Virus record (IMG/VR): IMGVR_UViG_3300017776_000218 | Span: 1 to 22,467 of that record | DNA length: 22,467 nucleotides | Reading direction: 5' to 3' (one strand) | From: a virus | Part shown: positions 8,232-18,353 of the stretch, in pieces | Layout: each line of letters starts with the position of its first letter | How positions within the stretch are numbered: the first letter of the stretch is position 1 | Notes under the pieces: generated by a model | Seen by the model: only the letters and a program-made list of their open reading frames with translations | Databases searched by the model: none | Told to the model about the DNA's origin: nothing | Translations under genes and position numbers: made by a program

Positions 8232-11200
8232 ATGGCTAGTACATATACGTTAAATAATGGGATCGAACTCATAGGAACTGGCGAACAGTCAGGTACATGG
8301 GGCGATACAACAAATACAAATTTAGAACTAATTGATACCGCGCTAGACGGTCAAATTAGCTTAACATTATCATCAGCAGGCTCTTCTGGATCGCCAAACG
8401 CGCTTCCAGTTTCAGATGGAGCATCATCTAATGGCAGAAATCGTTTAATTTCTTATGTAGATAGTGGTGATCTTGGGGCAACAGCTTATGTTCAATTAAC
8501 ACCAAATGATGCTGAAAAAATTATTTACATTCGAAACGCCTTATCTGGCTCACGCAGTATTATTGTCTTTCAAGGTACATATAACGCATCTAATGACTAT
8601 GAAATTCCAGCGGGTACAACAGCAGTTGTTTACTTTAATGGTGGCGGCACAGGTGCTGTAGCCGCAAACGTATTTAACAATGCTTACTTTGATGGTTTAA
8701 GATTAGGTAGCGTTTCTGTTACAGCAATTCTTGATGAAGATAACATGGCATCTAATAGTGCTACAGCTCTTTCTACACAACAGTCTATTAAAGCGTATGT
8801 GGATAGTCAGGTTGGCACGGTTGATACGCTTGCAGAGATACTTGCTAACGGAAACACGACTGGCGGTACTGATCTTGCGGTATCTACAGGCGACGACATT
8901 ACATTTGCGGACAACTCAAAAGCCATATTCGGTGCTGGGTCTGACCTACAGATTTATCATGATGGGGCGAATAACTACATTGAGGGTCAAACTGGTAGTA
9001 TAATTATTCAAAACACCCTTGATGATTACAATGTAATTATAAAATCAGATAACGGTTCTGGTGGAATGGCTGACTATTTTAGAGCAAACGGAAACACTGG
9101 TGCAGCTTTGATGTACAACTACGGCTCTGAAAAACTAGCCACAACATCAACAGGCATTGACGTAACAGGCACAGCCGTAACAGACGGCCTTACAGTTGCT
9201 GGTAATGTTTCAGTAGACGGCGGCACAATCAAGCTAGACGGGAATTATCCTGTTGGTACAGCCAATGTGGCGTTGGGTGATACTGCATTAGATAGTGTGC
9301 AATCTGGTGGTAACTATAATGTAGCTATAGGTTCAAGTGCAGGTACTGCGATTACAAATGGTGAAGCTAATGTAGCTCTTGGTTGGGAAGCATTAAAAAC
9401 AGAAGATACAGGTAACTTTTCTACTGCTATTGGTTATCGTGCGCTACTTACACAAAATAATAATGCGAGCAATTATAACACCGCTGTTGGTGCATTAGCA
9501 GGGTCGCAAATAGGCACAGGCGTAAGAAACACTATTATCGGTGGAATTGCAGGAGATGCTTTAACTAATGCTAATTACAACGTAGCTATTGGGTTTGACG
9601 CTTTGGGGACAGATACGCTTGGTAGTGGTTCTGTTGCTATTGGATACCAAGCACTTGAAAGACAAAACTTCACTTCTGCGACAACAAACTACAATGTAGC
9701 TGTTGGTTACAATACGGGTGAAAATATCACCACAGGCGTTCAAAACACCCTCATAGGTGCATTAGCAGGAGATTCTTTAACCGATGCTGATTATAATGTG
9801 GCTGTTGGTTATAACGCTTTAACATCAGATACGTTAGGTAGTTATTCTACTGCTATAGGCAGAAACGCTTTATATAGTCAAAACTTTACCTCTGCTACGC
9901 AATCTCATAATACTGCAATTGGATATGCCGCAGGTGAGTCAGTAACGACAGGCGTTAATATTACACTTATGGGTAGCGGTGCAGGTGATAGTGTTACTAC
10001 AGGTAATTCAAGTGCCGCCTTTGGTTACGGGGCTTTGTCTTCTGTGACAACGAATGATAATAATACTGCTATCGGCACGTTATCAATGCAAAACTCAACA
10101 GGTGCTAATAATACAGCAGTTGGTTACACTTCTCTTCGTGCCGCAGGGTCAGGAAGTAATAACGTGGCTGTTGGCTACGAAGCATTAGTCTCAAATACCA
10201 CAGGTTCTAATAACGTAGCTATAGGTAAAGACGCTTTAGATTCAAACACTACAGCTTCAAATAATGTGGCTATAGGTGTTGATGCTTTACAAACAAATAC
10301 TGTAGGTGCTGAAAGTGTAGCGATTGGTACATTTGCTTTAAATGCTCAAAATCCTGCTTCAGCTACAAGTATGTATAACGTAGCTGTAGGACACAACGCA
10401 GGAGCCGCAGTCACCACAGGCACTCGAAATACCCTTATCGGTGGCATTGCAGGTGATGCTTTGACAACTGGTGGTGATAATACTGTACTAGGATACAACG
10501 CACTAACTTCTGATACTTTAGGAAGTAAAACTGTTGCAATAGGACGATCAGTTTTAAGCAGTCAAAACTTTACATCTGCTACAGACACTTACAACACAGC
10601 AGTAGGTTATGGTGCAGGTGGTCAAGTCACAACAGGCGTAAACAACACCCTCATTGGTGGACTAGCTGGTGATGCCCTTTCTGATGCTGATTATAATGTG
10701 GCGATTGGTTCTGGTGCTTTAGGCAGTGACACTTTAGGAAGTAGAAGCGTAGCTATTGGCTATCAAGCCTTAGTTGCACAAAACTTTACTTCAGCCACTG
10801 AAACCTATAATACCGCTGTTGGTATGTTTGCAGGTGGCTCAGTAACCACAGGTCGATTTAATAACCTCATCGGTGGATTAGCAGGAGATGCTCTTACAGA
10901 TGGTAGTGCTAACGTGGCTATCGGGTACGGCGCTTTAAGCTCAGACACTAGGGGGCAAAGCAGTGTTGCTATTGGTCATGCCGCCTTAGAATCACAGAAC
11001 TTTACATCTAGTGCTGATTCATTCAACACAGCAGTTGGTAAGAGTGCAGGTAATCAAGTAACCACAGGCACAAGAGATACCCTCATTGGTGGTTTAGCTG
11101 GTGATGCTCTTACTACTGGAAGTTATAACGTAGCGGTTGGTTATACTTCATTGGGCGCAACGACAGAGGGTAACTCCAATGTAGCAGTAGGAGATGCCTC

Positions 11201-13214
11201 TTTAACTCAGAACATCACAGGTTCGGAAAACACAGCAGTGGGGCAAGGCGCTTTATCTAGTGCGACTGCATCTAAAAATACCGCTGTTGGTTCGCAGGCA
11301 GGAATAAATGTAACCTCAGGCACAGAAAACACACTCATAGGTGCATTAGCTGGTGATGCACTAACAGATGCAGACTATAATATAGTAGTAGGTACAGCCT
11401 CTTTAAGTACAGATACATTAGGTAGTCGGTCTATTGCGATTGGTTATAAGGCACTTGAAAAGCAAAACTTTACATCAGCAACAGATAGTTACAACACGGC
11501 AGTAGGACACGCCGCAGGTAATCAAGTAACCACAAGCATAAGAAATACCCTCATTGGCGGTCTTGCTGGTGATGCTCTTACTACAGGTCAAGAGAACACT
11601 GCACTTGGTTATTTTGCACTTAGTAGTGATACTTTAGGTAAAAAGTCTGTAGCGATTGGCGCAGGTGCATTAGGTCTACAAAACTTTACATCAACTACAG
11701 ATGCTTACAACACAGCAGTTGGTTTTGATGCAGGTCTATCAGTAACCACAGGCAGAGAGAACACCCTCATTGGTGGTGAGGCTGGTGACTCATTAACGGA
11801 CGCTGATTATAACGTGGCTATTGGTGTTTCAGCTTTAGGTGCTGATACAAAAGGTAGTAGAGCAATAGCTATTGGACATGGTGCTTTAGGCGCACAAAAC
11901 TTTACGTCTGCTACTAATAATTATAACGTAGCTATAGGTTTTCAGGCAGGTAATGATGTAACCACAGGTATAAACAACACCATTATCGGCGGACTTGCAG
12001 GTGATGCACTCACTGACGCTGACCACAATGTTGCAATTGGTCAGAGTGCTTTAACGACTGATACTAAAGGAAGTAAAAATACAGCAGTCGGTCATTCGGC
12101 TCTTGAAGCTCAAAACTTTACTACATCTACAAGTAGTTACAACACAGCCATTGGGTCTGACTCTGCTAAAGCAATCACAACAGGCATACGGAATACAATA
12201 ATTGGTAGTTCGGCAGGTGATTCTCTTACTGATGCTGATAAAAACGTAGTTGTAGGGTATGCCGCACTATCTGGCGATACTTTAGGTTCTAAATCTACAG
12301 CTATAGGTGATGGTGCTTTAGCTACACAAAATTTCACATCCGCTACAGATAGTTTCAACGTAGCTATTGGCGCAAGTGCTGGTTATAATTCAACCACAGG
12401 TAGATTTAATACTTTAATTGGTGCAAATGCGGGGGATGGACTTACATCATCAAACAGTAATACAGCCGTTGGCAAAGATGCTCTTGGTTCAGATACTCTA
12501 GGCGAGAACTCAGTTGCAATAGGTGAAAAAGCACTATTTACACAAAACTTTACTTCAAGTGTAGATAGCTTCAATACCGCCGTAGGTACTGGTGCAGGGT
12601 ACGCAGTAACCACAGGTGACAGAAATACCTTAATTGGTATGCAAGCAGGTGATGCAATCACGACAGGATCAAACAACACCCTTGTTGGGAATGGGACTGA
12701 GACAAGTGCTGTCGATGGTACTAGCCAAATTGTTTTGGGTAAAGCTACAATAGGTGTTGGAAATAGTACATTTACTTTTGGTAAAGATAATGGCTCTGAT
12801 CGTGTTTATAATCAGTTTACCTCTAATGCCACTTTTACTAGGGTGTCGGATGAACGATATAAAAAAGAGATTCAGACCAACACTGATTGTGGTTTAGATT
12901 TTATTAACGATTTACGCACTGTAACATTTAAGTTTAGAGCAAAATCTGAAATACCTAATACCTTACCTGACTATGACGCAGAAAAAACAACCGCAGAGCA
13001 TACGAATAAGTTGTACGGTTTAATTGCCCAAGAAGTTAAAGCGGCTTTAGATACACATAACATTACAGATTTTGGTGGTCACTCTGAAGAAGAAAATAGT
13101 GGAATACAAGGTGTAGCACAGTCTATGTTTGTCTACCCACTTATTAAAGCAGTACAAGAATTATCAGCAAAGAACGATGCACTAGAAGCACGTATCGCAA
13201 CACTAGAAGGATAA
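8232..13214 (+). CDS. Giant repetitive tail fibre with S74 chaperone domain
   Basis: This 1660-residue protein has four parts. Residues 1 to about 170 are a virion-attachment-like N-terminus starting MASTYTLNNGIELIGTGEQS. Residues 170-350 are linker and beta modules, including DLQIYHDGANNYIEG. Residues 380-1481 (1102 residues) are 15 tandem units built of subunits with the core N(T/V)A(V/I)G, resembling YadA-head or Hep_Hag repeats that form trimeric beta-rolls. The end holds a peptidase S74 intramolecular chaperone with SDERYKKEI: Ser1539 and Lys1544 match the Ser/+5-Lys dyad of endosialidase tailspikes, so self-cleavage before Ser1539 would release about 122 residues. It ends in a trimeric coiled coil (LSAKNDALEARIATLE). 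It is the host-binding fibre, receptor unknown. Confidence 0.9.
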   Translation: MASTYTLNNGIELIGTGEQSGTWGDTTNTNLELIDTALDGQISLTLSSAGSSGSPNALPVSDGASSNGRNRLISYVDSGDLGATAYVQLTPNDAEKIIYIRNALSGSRSIIVFQGTYNASNDYEIPAGTTAVVYFNGGGTGAVAANVFNNAYFDGLRLGSVSVTAILDEDNMASNSATALSTQQSIKAYVDSQVGTVDTLAEILANGNTTGGTDLAVSTGDDITFADNSKAIFGAGSDLQIYHDGANNYIEGQTGSIIIQNTLDDYNVIIKSDNGSGGMADYFRANGNTGAALMYNYGSEKLATTSTGIDVTGTAVTDGLTVAGNVSVDGGTIKLDGNYPVGTANVALGDTALDSVQSGGNYNVAIGSSAGTAITNGEANVALGWEALKTEDTGNFSTAIGYRALLTQNNNASNYNTAVGALAGSQIGTGVRNTIIGGIAGDALTNANYNVAIGFDALGTDTLGSGSVAIGYQALERQNFTSATTNYNVAVGYNTGENITTGVQNTLIGALAGDSLTDADYNVAVGYNALTSDTLGSYSTAIGRNALYSQNFTSATQSHNTAIGYAAGESVTTGVNITLMGSGAGDSVTTGNSSAAFGYGALSSVTTNDNNTAIGTLSMQNSTGANNTAVGYTSLRAAGSGSNNVAVGYEALVSNTTGSNNVAIGKDALDSNTTASNNVAIGVDALQTNTVGAESVAIGTFALNAQNPASATSMYNVAVGHNAGAAVTTGTRNTLIGGIAGDALTTGGDNTVLGYNALTSDTLGSKTVAIGRSVLSSQNFTSATDTYNTAVGYGAGGQVTTGVNNTLIGGLAGDALSDADYNVAIGSGALGSDTLGSRSVAIGYQALVAQNFTSATETYNTAVGMFAGGSVTTGRFNNLIGGLAGDALTDGSANVAIGYGALSSDTRGQSSVAIGHAALESQNFTSSADSFNTAVGKSAGNQVTTGTRDTLIGGLAGDALTTGSYNVAVGYTSLGATTEGNSNVAVGDASLTQNITGSENTAVGQGALSSATASKNTAVGSQAGINVTSGTENTLIGALAGDALTDADYNIVVGTASLSTDTLGSRSIAIGYKALEKQNFTSATDSYNTAVGHAAGNQVTTSIRNTLIGGLAGDALTTGQENTALGYFALSSDTLGKKSVAIGAGALGLQNFTSTTDAYNTAVGFDAGLSVTTGRENTLIGGEAGDSLTDADYNVAIGVSALGADTKGSRAIAIGHGALGAQNFTSATNNYNVAIGFQAGNDVTTGINNTIIGGLAGDALTDADHNVAIGQSALTTDTKGSKNTAVGHSALEAQNFTTSTSSYNTAIGSDSAKAITTGIRNTIIGSSAGDSLTDADKNVVVGYAALSGDTLGSKSTAIGDGALATQNFTSATDSFNVAIGASAGYNSTTGRFNTLIGANAGDGLTSSNSNTAVGKDALGSDTLGENSVAIGEKALFTQNFTSSVDSFNTAVGTGAGYAVTTGDRNTLIGMQAGDAITTGSNNTLVGNGTETSAVDGTSQIVLGKATIGVGNSTFTFGKDNGSDRVYNQFTSNATFTRVSDERYKKEIQTNTDCGLDFINDLRTVTFKFRAKSEIPNTLPDYDAEKTTAEHTNKLYGLIAQEVKAALDTHNITDFGGHSEEENSGIQGVAQSMFVYPLIKAVQELSAKNDALEARIATLEG
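9369..12674 (+). repeat. Fifteen tandem units of about 216 bp in the fibre gene
   Basis: Twelve units are 72 residues, the first is 70, and the fourth and ninth are 84; these sum exactly to 1102 residues. The common unit has four subunits beginning NVAIG, SVAIG, NTAVG and NTLIG, spaced 17, 21, 17 and 17, with QNFTSAT in the second. The 84-residue units have five subunits and lack QNFTSAT. Two more subunits precede the array. Confidence 0.92.
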
Positions 13215-13495: not shown

Positions 13496-13735
13496 ATGGG
13501 AAAAAATGAAAAGACCCCAATTACAGTCAACGATAAAGAATACATTATTGAAGACATGACAGACGGGCAAAAAGCTTTGCTTAATCACGTTAATGATCTA
13601 GGGCGTAAAATGGACAATGCTCGATTTAACTTAGATCAACTTTCCGTGGGTCGTGACGCTTTTGTTGCACGTTTGGCTGACTCTCTGGAGAACCCAGAAG
13701 AAGCTGAAGCAGAAGAAGCGGAAGTTGTAAACTAA
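13496..13735 (+). CDS. Small coiled-coil protein, DUF6447-like
   Basis: This 79-residue acidic protein opens with a beta hairpin (KTPITVNDKEYIIEDMTDGQ), followed by a helix NHVNDLGRKMDNARFNLDQL and an Glu/Ala-rich tail. The TVN(G/D)KEY opening then helix is, from memory, the small phage family annotated DUF6447, function unknown. AGGAGA lies upstream. Its TAA overlaps the next ATG (TAATG). The helix would readily form a dimeric or trimeric coiled coil. Found near fibres and lysis genes in cyanophages as I recall. Confidence 0.65.
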   Translation: MGKNEKTPITVNDKEYIIEDMTDGQKALLNHVNDLGRKMDNARFNLDQLSVGRDAFVARLADSLENPEEAEAEEAEVVN

Positions 13736-13971
13736 TGCAAATGGACGCGCTTTGGAACTTCGCTTTAACCGCAGGATTTGGTTTTTTGATATGGTGGATT
13801 AAATCCCACCACGAAGAACTAAAGCGTGTCACCATTCTGCTTAACAGAACTAGAGAGGAGTTGGCTAAAGAATACGTCACTAAAGCTGACTCATCTCAAG
13901 TATTAGGTCAAATAATGAGTAAATTTGATCGTATTGAAGAAAAGCTAGACAGGCTGGTAGAAAGAAAATGA
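13735..13971 (+). CDS. Small membrane protein with coiled coil
   Basis: This 78-residue protein has one membrane segment at about residues 6-22 (LWNFALTAGFGFLIWWI) followed by a charged coiled coil to the end (VTKADSSQVLGQIMSKFDRI, EEKLDRLVERK). It overlaps both neighbours (TAATG upstream, ATGA downstream). The layout of a single N-terminal membrane helix and a soluble coiled coil is that of an inner-membrane spanin (Rz-like), and it opens the membrane and lysis half of the window, but it is short for a spanin and the topology is not known. An accessory holin or anti-holin is the alternative. Confidence 0.6.
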   Translation: MQMDALWNFALTAGFGFLIWWIKSHHEELKRVTILLNRTREELAKEYVTKADSSQVLGQIMSKFDRIEEKLDRLVERK

Positions 13972-14534
13972 TACGCTCACTTGTAATATTGTTCTTCTTT
14001 ATTGCAGGTCTTACTATTGGTAATACTGTTTTTGCTGATGATGACGATACGATTAAGTCTGAAAGCACAGTAAGGTCGGATGGTACAATGGACACTACTA
14101 TCAACAGTCCACCGCCCTCTGCAATTTCCCCACAGATCAGCGCAAGTAACTCTGACTTATGTACTGTCGGGGTTGCTGGTGCAGTACAAACACAAATACT
14201 TGGTATCTCTGCTGGTCGTACTGTTAGAGATATGAACTGTGAAAAGCTCAAAAATGCTAAAACCATGTACGATATGGGCATGAAGGTAGCTGCCGTATCT
14301 GTAATGTGTCAGGACGAAAGAGTGTTTGAAGCCATGCTCAACGCGGGGACGCCCTGTCCCAAGGATGGGTTGGTGGGCGACAAAGCTAGACTGGCATGGG
14401 AAATGGAAGCCGTAAAAGAAGAAATACAAAGAGATCAGAACAATCCTATGAGAAAGATGTTCAATGAAAACGTTGAAACAAAAACGGGTCTTAGTGTTAT
14501 TATTAGCACTTTGGCCTTCTTACTCTTCTTGTGA
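13968..14534 (+). CDS. Secreted or membrane-anchored phage protein
   Basis: This 188-residue protein has a clear Sec signal peptide (MIRSLVILFFFIAGLTIGNT, then VFA|DDDD, cut near residue 23) and a second hydrophobic stretch at the extreme C-terminus (GLSVIISTLAFLLFL). Four Cys (65, 91, 114, 130) in the mature part could form two disulfides in the periplasm. The central block CTVGVAGAVQTQILGISAGR and the MGMKVAAVSVMCQDERVFEA segment are recalled as conserved in marine phages, function unknown. It overlaps the previous gene by ATGA and the next by 71 bases. It is the first of five consecutive exported proteins. Confidence 0.7.
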   Translation: MIRSLVILFFFIAGLTIGNTVFADDDDTIKSESTVRSDGTMDTTINSPPPSAISPQISASNSDLCTVGVAGAVQTQILGISAGRTVRDMNCEKLKNAKTMYDMGMKVAAVSVMCQDERVFEAMLNAGTPCPKDGLVGDKARLAWEMEAVKEEIQRDQNNPMRKMFNENVETKTGLSVIISTLAFLLFL

Positions 14535-15336
14535 CCCTTATAGTTATGGGACAACAGGGAATGCCGCGTCTACAGCACTAAGCTGGAGCATGAGTTCTGT
14601 TTTGCCTGATATTCCGGGTATTGATATTAACGGCTTACTATACAAATACACAACAGTAAAAGACCCTGACGCTGATATGAAAGTGCATATTGGCAATAAG
14701 AATGTTGACGCAGATGGCTATATCTTTCGAAAAACAGACGATTGGTCAGGAGTTCCCGGAAACACTATTGTTAGATCGTTTCCCCTTTCGAACATTCCAG
14801 CTCCGCAATGGGGTGCGGGTTCGATTGATGTTGAAGGGGAAGGTTCGGTCAAAGATGCTATGGTTATATATAGTTATAGATTAGACGAATGTTATGATGA
14901 GCAATCTAACCCTGCATGTCCGGGATATGTCAAACCTATACCTGTAATACCTGTAGTTGAACTGTATGACGTACTAGAAGATGATGACGCTATGGCTGCT
15001 ATAGACGCGGATACAGACTTTCAGTATGATGAAGATGGCAATCTGATACTTTCTGAAGAAGAGGAAGAGGAAGAAAATAGAATTGAGATGGGTCTAACAG
15101 CGTCTGCCAATGCACTGACCCTGTTTAAGACACAAGGACAAGATGATATTATCATGGCTATTAACCAACAAACAAACTTAGCTATGTACTATAACGCATC
15201 TATTAATGGCGGTGTGTATGCTGACGCCCCCGGTCTTGCTGATTCAGAGATAGCTGACAACAAGAAAGCCTTGCGTAACAATCTAGCACAACAGATTCTG
15301 CATGAGAAAATGGTCGATATGCAGTACAACAAATGA
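14464..15336 (+). CDS. Exported protein, possible lipoprotein
   Basis: This 290-residue protein begins MKTLKQKRVLVLLLALWPSY and then SSC, a signal peptide ending at Cys23. YSSC is an imperfect lipobox (Tyr at -3), so lipid attachment is possible but uncertain; Asp follows the Cys. The mature part is acidic and beta-rich, with a Cys pair at 143 and 152 in DECYDEQSNPACPGY, a run of seven Glu near residues 198-204, and a helical C-terminus. The signal peptide supports the start at 14464, although this lies inside the preceding gene. I recall unnamed homologues in marine phages. It is too large for a typical outer-membrane spanin, and the function is unknown. Confidence 0.7.
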   Translation: MKTLKQKRVLVLLLALWPSYSSCDPYSYGTTGNAASTALSWSMSSVLPDIPGIDINGLLYKYTTVKDPDADMKVHIGNKNVDADGYIFRKTDDWSGVPGNTIVRSFPLSNIPAPQWGAGSIDVEGEGSVKDAMVIYSYRLDECYDEQSNPACPGYVKPIPVIPVVELYDVLEDDDAMAAIDADTDFQYDEDGNLILSEEEEEEENRIEMGLTASANALTLFKTQGQDDIIMAINQQTNLAMYYNASINGGVYADAPGLADSEIADNKKALRNNLAQQILHEKMVDMQYNK

Positions 15337-15344
15337 GGTTTAAT

Positions 15345-15833
15345 ATGAAGTATTTAATAGCAACACTTTCTCTCGTTGCACTGCCAGCTTTCGCAACTGT
15401 AAATATTACAGGGAGTGTAGAAGCCAAATGTGTGATACAAACAGACAAAGCTGGTGTGTATGGAAACCCTATTGCCAGTAAGTTAAGCACAACACCTGCG
15501 GATGGTGGTATATTACCTGTAATTAGAATTGATGTATCTATTGCAGATGCCTACACAGCTAACATAACGCACCCAACATCGTTTAGTTCTTCACCTACCT
15601 TAACAGATACATTGGTATGGACAGGTAGCACTACTGTAACAAAGATGTCTGCGTCAGGTATGTCTGCATATAATGGTGCTAAAGCAGTGGTAGGCAGCAC
15701 ATCTAAATTTAATCTTACCCTTGCAGGGTCGGCATGGTTCTCTACTGCATCCAGCGCAGTTTACGGTTCAGCAAAACCGTTTCCCGGTGGCACTTACACC
15801 GCAGTTGTACAGGCTACCTGTATTGCTAAGTAG
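15345..15833 (+). CDS. Exported fimbrial-subunit-like protein (hypothesis)
   Basis: I choose ATG 15345 over 15333 because GAGG (15335-15338) is six bases upstream and the signal peptide then reads MKYLIATLSLVALPAFA. The 145-residue mature protein is almost all beta, with two Cys. Its start, VNITGSVEAKCVIQTD, and its last strand, GGTYTAVVQATC, recall fimbrial subunits: an N-terminal strand before a conserved Gly-x-Val and a closing strand with alternating hydrophobic residues. The middle (TLTDTLVWTGSTTV) resembles, by eye, class 5 fimbrins such as CfaB. The likeness is from memory and not aligned. The next gene looks like a small beta-sandwich chaperone. No usher is seen, so a virion or cell-surface role remains possible. 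Confidence 0.7.
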   Translation: MKYLIATLSLVALPAFATVNITGSVEAKCVIQTDKAGVYGNPIASKLSTTPADGGILPVIRIDVSIADAYTANITHPTSFSSSPTLTDTLVWTGSTTVTKMSASGMSAYNGAKAVVGSTSKFNLTLAGSAWFSTASSAVYGSAKPFPGGTYTAVVQATCIAK

Positions 15834-16209
15834 GATAATCACGATAGGTACGTTAGTTACTTTTGGTGCGTCTGCGCACGAGATGACCCCAGCCTATCCA
15901 GAAGTAAAGATGTCCCACGTTAAAAACGTAGTTAAGGTAGAGATGTCTCTTTTTAATTCAAGAGAAGAGATACAGTATTATCAGGTTGATTTGTTTGATT
16001 TAAACTGGATGCCTATACCTTTTTCTACGCCATATAAAATTATGAAAGTTGACTATAAAGAACATAAATCTTTTGATGTCTACATAAGAAAGAGAGATTT
16101 ACCCGAAGCAGTCTTTCTATGCACAACCTCAAAAGTAAGAAAGACTAATGTATCTAGGACACTTGTTTCTTCTACGATATGCTCAAGGCTAGATGGAGAA
16201 CCTGCATGA
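15823..16209 (+). CDS. Exported single-domain beta protein, chaperone-like
   Basis: An open frame runs through here, but its first ATG (15721) lies deep in the preceding gene. A TTG at 15823 gives 128 residues with a textbook signal peptide, MLSRIITIGTLVTFGASA|HE, so I use it; AGG about ten bases upstream is a modest ribosome site. The mature protein has strands VVKVEMSLFNSREEIQYYQV and DLFDLNWMPIPFSTPYKIMK, then a KSFDVYIRKRDLP edge strand and two Cys. That order recalls the first immunoglobulin-like domain of periplasmic fimbrial chaperones, including the Pro-rich middle and the late leucine-proline turn. It follows the fimbrin-like gene with overlap. The chaperone function is inference. 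Confidence 0.65.
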   Translation: MLSRIITIGTLVTFGASAHEMTPAYPEVKMSHVKNVVKVEMSLFNSREEIQYYQVDLFDLNWMPIPFSTPYKIMKVDYKEHKSFDVYIRKRDLPEAVFLCTTSKVRKTNVSRTLVSSTICSRLDGEPA

Positions 16210-16604
16210 GATTAGTAGTAGCTCTTTGTTTGTTATCTAGTTCTGTTGTAGCCGACAACAGCTCACTTTCTCTTGCTTTGCCCAACCCGCCCATGAACTA
16301 TCAGTCGGATTCGTTTTCTACAGGTAATACGCGTTGCAGTAACGCTGTGGGTGGAGGTGTAAACCTAGAGTATGGCGTAACGGGTGTTCTTTCTGGATTG
16401 AATACAATGAATAAAGGTAAGGATATAGGTGTGTATGCTCGTATTGTTATACCGCTTGATAAACCAAAGGCTCGTATTAACTGTGATGATCTTTACCAGA
16501 TAGAGTTAACACAGCGTCGTTTAGAGATACAAAAGTTACGAGACGAGCTAGAAGCACTGAAGAACTTACAAAATGCTGGCGGCGAGATGGAGTTTGAAAA
16601 CTAA
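16206..16604 (+). CDS. Exported protein with C-terminal coiled coil
   Basis: ATG 16206 is preferred over 16179 because it has GGAG seven bases upstream, overlaps the previous stop as ATGA, and starts a signal peptide MRLVVALCLLSSSVVA|DNSS. The 132-residue product has a central block FSTGNTRCSNAVGGGVNLEY and then KDIGVYARIVIPL, two Cys (in TRCSN and INCDD) that may pair, and a C-terminal helix IELTQRRLEIQKLRDELEAL. A periplasmic coiled coil could give oligomers. I recall the family in many marine phages close to lysis genes; function unknown. It could be a cell-envelope disrupting protein, an outer spanin-like partner, or a structural protein. Confidence 0.68.
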   Translation: MRLVVALCLLSSSVVADNSSLSLALPNPPMNYQSDSFSTGNTRCSNAVGGGVNLEYGVTGVLSGLNTMNKGKDIGVYARIVIPLDKPKARINCDDLYQIELTQRRLEIQKLRDELEALKNLQNAGGEMEFEN

Positions 16605-17122: not shown

Positions 17123-17446
17123 ATGACTGAGTTTGAAAAAGCTGATGTAGACGGTAACGGTTCGATAGATCAAGCCGAATGGGATCGCATGGCGTTCGAA
17201 GATAAACGTTTAAAAATGCTAGATGACGATGCGCAAAGAGACGCTCAACGCAAGATGGCATGGTTCGCTTTGTTTGGTATGCTACTATACCCACTGTCTA
17301 TAATTATTTGTAACTTGGCTAATCTTGATGAAGCCATGAACTCACTAGCTTCTATTGCTGGTGTGTATTTTGTTTCTGTAGCTGCTATCGTTGCCGCCTT
17401 CTATGGTAAGGAAGCCTACACAAAAGGAAAGGCGAATAACGAATGA
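17123..17446 (+). CDS. EF-hand membrane protein in the lysis module
   Basis: This 107-residue protein carries a canonical EF-hand loop at residues 8-19 (DVDGNGSIDQAE): Asp8, Asp10, Asn12, Ser14, Asp16 and Glu19 are the expected calcium ligands. After a charged helix come two membrane segments at about 45-64 (MAWFALFGMLLYPLSIIICN) and 75-94. AGGAG sits upstream, and the gene overlaps the holin gene by ATGA. A calcium-binding domain joined to a holin-sized membrane protein suggests a possible holin partner or an ion-sensing regulator, but a single EF-hand without a partner is unusual. I recall such EF-hand membrane genes in marine phages; function unproven. Confidence 0.72.
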   Translation: MTEFEKADVDGNGSIDQAEWDRMAFEDKRLKMLDDDAQRDAQRKMAWFALFGMLLYPLSIIICNLANLDEAMNSLASIAGVYFVSVAAIVAAFYGKEAYTKGKANNE

Positions 17447-17847
17447 TGAGTCTTGTAAGCAATCTAGTAGGACCTGTTACTGGGCTATTAGACAAAGTTA
17501 TTGAGGACAAAGATCAAAAGGCTAAGTTAGCCCATGAGATTGCTACGATGTCCGATAATCATGCCCAGCAGGCGCTAATGGGGCAATTAGAAATAAACAA
17601 AGCTGAAGCTGCATCAGGTTCTTTATTTAAAGGCGGATGGCGACCATTTATAGGTTGGGTGTGCGGTGTTGCTTTTGCTTATCATTTTGTATTGCAGCCA
17701 CTAATTGTTTTTGGTGTAACTGCCGCTGGTGTTGATATACCTGCTTTGCCAGAGTTTGATATGGGCAGTTTGATGACTGTGATGATGGGAATGCTCGGTT
17801 TGGGCGGACTCCGCAGCTACGAGAAAAAACAAGGAATTACGAAATGA
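17443..17847 (+). CDS. Holin (three-TM family)
   Basis: This 134-residue protein matches, from memory, the phage and gene-transfer-agent holin family called Holin of 3TMs. It has an N-terminal amphipathic helix with a hydrophobic start (MSLVSNLVGPVTGLLDKVIE), a long charged helix, the signature block GSLFKGGWRPFIGWVCGVAF, a second segment (FVLQPLIVFGVTAAGV), and a third (LMTVMMGMLGLGGLRSYEKK). The arrangement next to the endolysin gene, overlapping it by ATGA, supports the call. It should form the pore that times lysis and lets the muramidase reach the wall. Confidence 0.88.
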   Translation: MMSLVSNLVGPVTGLLDKVIEDKDQKAKLAHEIATMSDNHAQQALMGQLEINKAEAASGSLFKGGWRPFIGWVCGVAFAYHFVLQPLIVFGVTAAGVDIPALPEFDMGSLMTVMMGMLGLGGLRSYEKKQGITK

Positions 17848-18353
17848 AAGAGAACTTTGATAAATGCTTAAAAATGCTTCTTGCTCACGAAGGAGGATTC
17901 GTAAATCATCCCAAAGATCCCGGAGGTATCACAAATTTGGGAGTTACCAAAAAAGTGTACGATGAGTGGACTGGTCGTGAGTCTACAGAGCAAGAAATGC
18001 GTGACTTAACACCCGAAGATGTGGCTCCTATATATAAAAAGAACTACTGGGATCGAGTCAAAGGAGATTCACTTCCATCTGGTTTGGACTGGGCCTGTTT
18101 CGATTGGGCCGTGAATTCCGGATCGGGTAGACCTGCAAAAGCTGTGCAACGTGCAGTTGGAGCTACGGCAGATGGGGCTATAGGGCCAGCTACGCTAGGG
18201 CTTATTATGGAAAAAGACCCTAAATTTATTATTGAGTATGTTCATGATGTAAGGCAAGATTTCTATAAAAGTTTAAAAACATTTGAAACGTTTGGACGTG
18301 GATGGACTCGTAGAAATAAAGAGACTTTGCATCAAGCTTTAGAGATGTTGTAA
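17844..18353 (+). CDS. Endolysin, GH108 N-acetylmuramidase
   Basis: This 169-residue protein has the N-terminal signature of glycoside hydrolase family 108: EGGFVNHPKDPGGITNLGVT at residues 16-35, with Glu16 as the expected catalytic residue. A second block with NYWDRVKGDSLPSGLDWACF follows, then DGAIGPATLGLI and a C-terminal peptidoglycan-binding-3-like segment. The length matches the short lysozymes of this family. It hydrolyses the beta-1,4 bond between N-acetylmuramic acid and N-acetylglucosamine in the cell wall at the end of infection. It has no signal peptide, so it depends on the holin just upstream. A terminator hairpin follows. Confidence 0.92.
   Translation: MKENFDKCLKMLLAHEGGFVNHPKDPGGITNLGVTKKVYDEWTGRESTEQEMRDLTPEDVAPIYKKNYWDRVKGDSLPSGLDWACFDWAVNSGSGRPAKAVQRAVGATADGAIGPATLGLIMEKDPKFIIEYVHDVRQDFYKSLKTFETFGRGWTRRNKETLHQALEML

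Follow-up and report, generated by a model that had tools for sequence, protein, structure and literature searches.

A block of exported proteins kept beside the lysis genes of marine phages: a candidate for lysis-stage action on the outer membrane

Introduction

Why should a phage carry five consecutive genes for exported proteins next to its lysis genes? The question is raised by the IMG/VR virus record IMGVR_UViG_3300017776_000218, analysed here over positions 1 to 22,467 (the window, 22,467 nucleotides), in which five such genes, designated P1 to P5, follow one another on the same strand. The original prediction regarded them as a single envelope-acting set and left its purpose (lysis aid, receptor masking or superinfection exclusion) undecided. 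Here we report that, judging from comparative sequence analysis, these genes belong to a six-gene block that is common to at least two unrelated marine phage types, and that comprises two differently distributed modules, P1(-P2) and P3-P4-P5. We also weigh the functions that the products of this block may perform.

Results and Discussion

Five exported proteins and a sixth partner

P1 to P5 are five open reading frames (ORFs) occupying positions 13968-16604, exactly as originally delimited, with P4 starting at a TTG codon (15823). The proposed tight coupling of these genes was confirmed, as neighbours overlap or nearly abut: P1 and P2 share 71 nt and P3 and P4 share 11 nt, P2 and P3 are separated by a gap of 8 nt, and the P4-P5 and P5-P6 junctions have the form ATGA and TAATG, respectively. 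The median ratios of nonsynonymous to synonymous substitutions (dN/dS), 0.07-0.13 for P1-P5 and 0.06 for P6, indicate strong purifying selection, and therefore that all six genes are maintained.

Export signals were judged by eye from alignments of 21-32 diverged homologues per protein, supplemented with a simple heuristic. The N-termini of P1-P5 have the make-up of Sec-type signal peptides: basic residues come first, then a hydrophobic core, then small residues at a presumed cleavage site (VFA|D in P1, SSC|D in P2, AFA|T in P3, ASA|H in P4 and VVA|D in P5), and these features persist across the diverged homologues. The mature part of each protein contains an even number of invariant Cys residues: four in P1 (C65, C91, C114 and C130) and one pair in each of the others (C143/C152 in P2, C29/C159 in P3, C100/C120 in P4, C44/C93 in P5). 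The claim of five consecutive exported products with signal peptides and paired Cys residues is therefore upheld. The possibility that P2 is a conserved lipoprotein was rejected, because many homologues have Ser in place of its lipobox-like Cys. A P1-P5 domain similarity also proved unsupported, since the hhalign value of 22% obtained with the signal peptides fell to 1% without them.

Most of the window is contained, at 99.7% identity, in a 55.7-kb contig (G001), in which 8 of the 72 ORFs pass the signal-peptide heuristic. Five of these are P1, P2, P3, P5 and P6; the remainder are three ORFs that are either short or doubtful. P4 escaped detection, as its entry in the ORF list began at an upstream start codon. 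By this measure the exported set of the phage is essentially the P1-P6 block. The expectation that phages usually export one or two proteins of this kind needs qualification, as large exported sets have a precedent in the curli (type VIII secretion) region of pelagiphages, which comprises up to seven genes and is shared between phage types (PMC9599517).

The sixth gene, P6, lies directly 3' of P5 in every case. The end of its product resembles those of HTVC115P gp49, HTVC033P gp44 and HTVC202P gp26. Since gene order is constant in the loci, and an EF-hand gene encoding a protein with two transmembrane (TM) segments follows P6 in 98 of 108 distinct loci, both P6 and the EF-hand gene belong to the neighbourhood.

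Two modules with different distributions

The order P1-P2-P3-P4-P5-P6 is constant wherever an IMG/VR contig spans it. A profile scan detected all six genes in 234 loci (a count that is not deduplicated), and the remaining loci are largely consistent with truncation. The whole block is also present, in a far diverged form (homology E values of ~1e-30 to 1e-80), in two metagenome-assembled genome (MAG) contigs of a different phage type, C76 and C105 (G014). T4-like replication genes, among them those for a clamp, a clamp loader, a recombination nuclease, a polymerase and UvsX-like proteins, were recognized by eye in C105.

P1 was found without P3-P5 in all 80 of 80 pelagiphage-type loci, and in the isolates HTVC115P, HTVC033P, HTVC202P, HTVC023P and Mosig as well as in Roseobacter phages; the P1 of the window matches phrog_20531 (E 2e-14), with homologues in Pelagibacter and Roseobacter phages. 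In pelagiphages the gene after P1 encodes a large, acidic protein whose N-terminus is often carbohydrate-binding-like. The acidic protein of HTVC115P ends with HNELVDMQYR (compare HEKMVDMQYN in P2), a link that is weak because overall identity is only ~20%.

The other module, P3-P4-P5, retains its gene order in Vibrio phages that have no P1, P2 or P6. In a ten-protein set, the P3, P4 and P5 profiles of the window match pVp-1_0077, pVp-1_0078 and pVp-1_0079 with E values of 7e-8, 4e-5 and 2e-13, respectively; P3 also matches phrog_25895 and P5 matches phrog_37374 (E 2e-8). The Vibrio families phrog_25895, phrog_25455 and phrog_37374 represent P3, P4 and P5 homologues in order, differing from the block in the absence of P1, P2 and P6 and, often, in the small lipoprotein-like gene that comes next (with an ISGC lipobox, after P5 in most Vibrio phages, L431-L436). 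The pVp-1 P3 and P4 proteins each have counterparts in 179 Vibrio phage records, including T5-like, Queuovirinae and other genomes. P3 and P4 are connected to the Vibrio phages through profiles only, and tblastn of P2, P3 and P4 of the window against named phages gave no match. No significant match to P1-P5 was obtained in Pfam or NCBIfam. In several Vibrio records P5 is apparently annotated with a late start, and the annotated ORFs of phages D71 and D79 look out of frame.

A cellular origin of P3 was considered and rejected: its sole match in a gammaproteobacterial sample is a MAG contig bearing P1-P2 beside a capsid-like gene, and the profile is absent from the other 368 genomes of that sample. 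No member of the P3 family was found in plasmids.

The five genes therefore do travel together, as had been proposed, and they are not scattered among close relatives. The set is not strictly one of five genes, since P6 also belongs to it and since in distant relatives the unit splits into the two modules.

The block is kept beside lysis genes

The predicted position of the block between a fibre block and the holin and endolysin genes is supported by the window (Table 1) and by its relatives. A holin and an endolysin lie directly 3' of the block in 78 of the 88 distinct loci whose sequence extends 2.5 kb past P6, in 76 cases together with the EF-hand gene. The lysis genes themselves are exchanged: the best-matching endolysin is of the GH108 type in 31 loci, GH19-like in 37 and of the PG_binding type in 10 (at least three unrelated types), and other loci have small, unrelated TM proteins where the window has its holin. 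The block of the T4-like contig is followed instead by a class-3 lipase and a small TM protein. In Vibrio T5-like phages the genes immediately 3' of P3-P5 encode a T holin and an M15 endolysin. Since the lysins are exchanged, and since no more than 5 of 81 loci retain the C-terminus of the window fibre, the block is tied to the lysis position and not to one lysin or one fibre.

Table 1. Genes of the block and its flanks in the window
Gene	Coordinates	Strand	Product and features
Small TM + coil gene	13735..13971	+	Directly 5' of P1, outside the unit; frequent flanking gene
P1	13968..14534	+	Exported protein of 188 aa with a signal peptide, a Pro-rich linker, a conserved domain containing four Cys (residues 63-145) and a hydrophobic tail at the C-terminus
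P2	14464..15336	+	Exported, 290 aa; invariant C143/C152 in N-terminal part, Glu-rich stretch, conserved C-terminus ..HEKMVDMQYNK
P3	15345..15833	+	Exported, 162 aa; Ig-like subunit predicted to fold like a pilin; C29, C159
P4	15823..16209	+	Exported, ~110 residues in mature form; one PapD-like domain predicted, corresponding to domain 1 only of the chaperones
P5	16206..16604	+	Exported, 132 aa; two invariant Cys, C-terminal helix
P6	16604..17113	+	One predicted TM helix and ~110-residue periplasmic coiled coil ending ..NPLAD
EF-hand gene	17123..17446	+	EF-hand + two-TM protein; EF-hand E 3e-4, below curated cut-off
Holin gene	17443..17847	+	3-TM holin (GTA_holin_3TM), PF11351 E 1e-23
Endolysin gene	17844..18353	+	GH108 endolysin, PF05838 E 2e-31

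The neighbourhood also bears on the main rival explanation, superinfection exclusion or receptor masking. The outer-membrane receptor would be coated or altered by the products of the block, preventing re-adsorption to debris and excluding competitors. Llp of phage T5 is a case of receptor masking and exclusion of this kind. The products are envelope-directed, and in the window the block follows the fibre block. Moreover, in all seven of the seven Vibrio phages examined, P3 is directly preceded, whatever its genomic place, by a large homologous gene (phrog_10818) that is probably fibre-like, and in Vibrio phage D71 (L432) an annotated PagP-like lipid A acyltransferase (9224-9661) is encoded within a few kb of the P3-P4 homologues. 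However, a mask specific to one receptor should vary along with the fibre, and in the loci in which the fibre C-terminus is so rarely retained P1, P3 and P6 show median identities of 78-85%; the conserved position is instead beside the holin and endolysin. Masking fits less well for this reason, and we regard it as rather unlikely, though it is the foremost competitor.

The constant large gene 5' of the module in Vibrio phages, including those with P3-P5 near capsid and neck genes, would also suit a role as virion accessories, stored in the periplasm until lysis and then attached to the particle so as to lengthen or protect the fibre. Phages sharing the block nevertheless differ in their fibre C-terminus, and such a role seems improbable.

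Several features of the surrounding region deserve mention. The window fibre (8232-13214) is a 1660-aa tail fibre with many similar short repeats and an S74 endosialidase-type chaperone domain at its end. The small TM and coil gene upstream of P1 is present in 57 of 107 loci, and has a homologue just 5' of P1 in phage CRP-810. The EF-hand protein is possibly a calcium-linked membrane protein within the lysis region. The class-3 lipase of the T4-like contig (PF01764, E 4e-23) is encoded at L446:18197-18904, and a similar protein follows the block in C76 (L441:9783-10493). Two proteins, L277 (G001 ~51767-52174) and L143 (11459-11881), resemble by eye HTVC115P gp46, annotated as 'toxin-activating lysine-acyltransferase'; one of them is encoded just after an endolysin.

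Predicted folds of P3 and P4

AlphaFold2 models were obtained for P4 with a predicted local distance difference test (pLDDT) score of 78 and for P3 with a score of 62 (low to moderate confidence). In Foldseek comparisons with the PDB, pilus chaperones accounted for 33 of the best 50 matches of P4 (E ~2e-3), and chaperone-usher pilins for 18 of the best 50 matches of P3. These models suggest a pilin-like Ig subunit in the case of P3 and its one-domain PapD-like partner in that of P4, and the suggestion gains weight because adjacent genes point to both partners of one pathway, that of chaperone-usher pili (FimC/FimA, Caf1M/Caf1, CsuC/CsuA-B).

A further possible likeness concerns the FGL chaperones, in which a disulfide joins strands F1 and G1, and of which Caf1M anchors its subunit through Arg20 and Lys139 (PMC4133393, PMC4654587). 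In the P4 family the invariant C100 and C120 lie on the predicted F and G strands, and residue 122 is always Arg or Lys. We take Lys139 of Caf1M to lie two residues past its second Cys, and equate P4 residue 122 with it by position only. At the same place the Vibrio P4 proteins have CAK[VL]RLYWP, and FimC has SRIKLYYRP.

The differences from chaperone-usher systems are equally clear. P4 ends after domain 1 and has no domain 2 (the Vibrio protein stops shortly after the hinge-like RLYWP); in P3, the mature N-terminus comprises 12-15 residues before the first Cys (with the cleavage site predicted by eye) compared with ~21 in FimA, and the N-terminal donor strand is therefore missing; no usher (PF00577) was found in 12 long, possibly incomplete contigs, with the E. 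coli control detected; and there is no significant sequence similarity. For these reasons we do not propose a chaperone-usher system. According to the models, P3 and P4 may nevertheless work like a chaperone-subunit pair and, given the lack of an usher and of a P3 donor strand, a fixed pair or short assembly is more likely than a pilus.

The same observations bear on the idea that P3 polymerizes into a filament on the surface of the infected cell, for aggregation or protection. The predicted pilin-like and chaperone-like folds would suit it, and the multigene type VIII secretion sets common to podo- and myo-pelagiphages are a precedent (PMC9599517), but the missing usher, donor strand and domain 2 make a filament very unlikely. 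The pelagiphage curli block (CsgG/CsgF/CsgA-B) resembles P1-P6 as a multigene exported set in marine podophages, present also in myophages (PMC9599517), and differs in carrying a histidine kinase, FecR and an outer-membrane pore. P1-P5 match no curli component (CsgG/CsgF) in Pfam or NCBIfam; CsgG was not sought in whole contigs.

It is quite possible that P3 and P4 are ordinary Ig or beta-sandwich proteins unrelated to the chaperone-usher mechanism, a proposal that concerns the fold only and is compatible with any function. Much of what counts against the pilin-chaperone interpretation speaks for it: the Foldseek E values of P3 and P4 range from 1e-3 to 0.2, above 1e-3; the P3 model is poor; the VIA-align Z of 8-9 between P4 and PapD-like domain 1 is equalled by unrelated Ig domains, GH2 and other Ig domains scoring equal or better, as do integrins and adhesins for P3; and profiles of mature P3 and P4 gave no significant match to the pilins and chaperones of E. 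coli K-12. Nor was there a match to the PapD_N model (PF00345) in six contigs, and PDB sequence searches with the P3 and P4 profiles and the Vibrio P4 returned nothing useful. On the other side stand the independent return, by two adjacent proteins, of the two partners of one pathway as dominant Foldseek matches, the Cys-pair and basic-residue pattern of P4, and the equal numbers of Vibrio records for P3 and P4.

An apparent homology of P3 to the pilins of E. coli K-12 reached 86% in hhalign when signal peptides were included but 1.4% with mature sequences, and was discarded as a signal-peptide artefact. The best match of P4 in a viral structure library, a 133-aa viral protein (E 7e-5), was not informative.

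A possible role at the outer membrane during lysis

The purpose left open by the original prediction can be narrowed, with lysis-stage action fitting the neighbourhood best. A role in lysis-stage action on the outer membrane is our tentative preference over receptor-specific masking, because the lysis position is kept, the fibre varies and no Rz homologue was found (12 related contigs). We envisage that P1-P6 would constitute one transferable block whose products build a periplasmic or envelope complex late in infection. Judging from the predicted folds, P4 would stabilize P3 by lending its G strand; P6 would anchor the complex in the inner membrane, and its further parts would be P1, P2 and P5. 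The neighbourhood suggests that such a complex would act on the outer membrane at lysis, the role played elsewhere by spanins.

Like the phage spanins (Rz/Rz1, T1 gp11), the block is a late exported set adjoining the holin and endolysin genes. Judged by eye, P6 has the i-spanin-like arrangement of a TM helix and a coiled coil (PF03245 gave no match in the 12 contigs), and P1, with its export signal and hydrophobic C-terminal tail, resembles a u-spanin without the lipid. The block departs from spanins in its number of genes (six, against one or two), in its Ig-like subunits, and in lacking a lipoprotein and homology to Rz.

Several points weigh against lysis-stage action. Spanins depend either on a lipoprotein of the outer membrane or on a unimolecular form with a lipid anchor (PMC6139136), and neither was found here: P1 and P3-P5 have no lipobox, the P2 Cys is not conserved, and the heuristic found among the G001 ORFs one implausible 42-aa lipobox ORF and no convincing lipoprotein. 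The lack of Rz homology does not prove that spanins are absent, because 91 of 677 surveyed phages had no identified spanin (PMC6139136). Ten of the 88 loci have no adjacent lysin (the podophage loci L097, L099, L101, L102 and L139, a subset, carry P1-P6 without an adjacent EF-hand, holin or lysin gene), and in the Vibrio siphoviruses K251 g3 and vB_VhaS-tm (Queuovirinae) P3-P5 lie between capsid and neck/tail genes. Together with the lack of a lipoprotein, this last location argues against a plain spanin.

The most specific version of the proposal, a machine made of an usherless pilin-like subunit and a one-domain PapD-like chaperone that breaches the outer membrane instead of spanins, and that unrelated marine phages pass between them as a cassette, must be considered unlikely as a whole. 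We found no description of a phage pilin/chaperone pair in the part of the literature covered.

Conclusions

The block offers a concrete candidate for the means by which marine phages with no recognizable spanin open the outer membrane: it is conserved, mobile and essentially the sole exported set, and it is kept beside the lysis genes while the holin and endolysin are exchanged. The presence of P3-P4-P5 in culturable Vibrio phages makes this candidate directly testable. A pilin- and chaperone-like pair operating without an usher would, if true, extend donor-strand biology to viruses.

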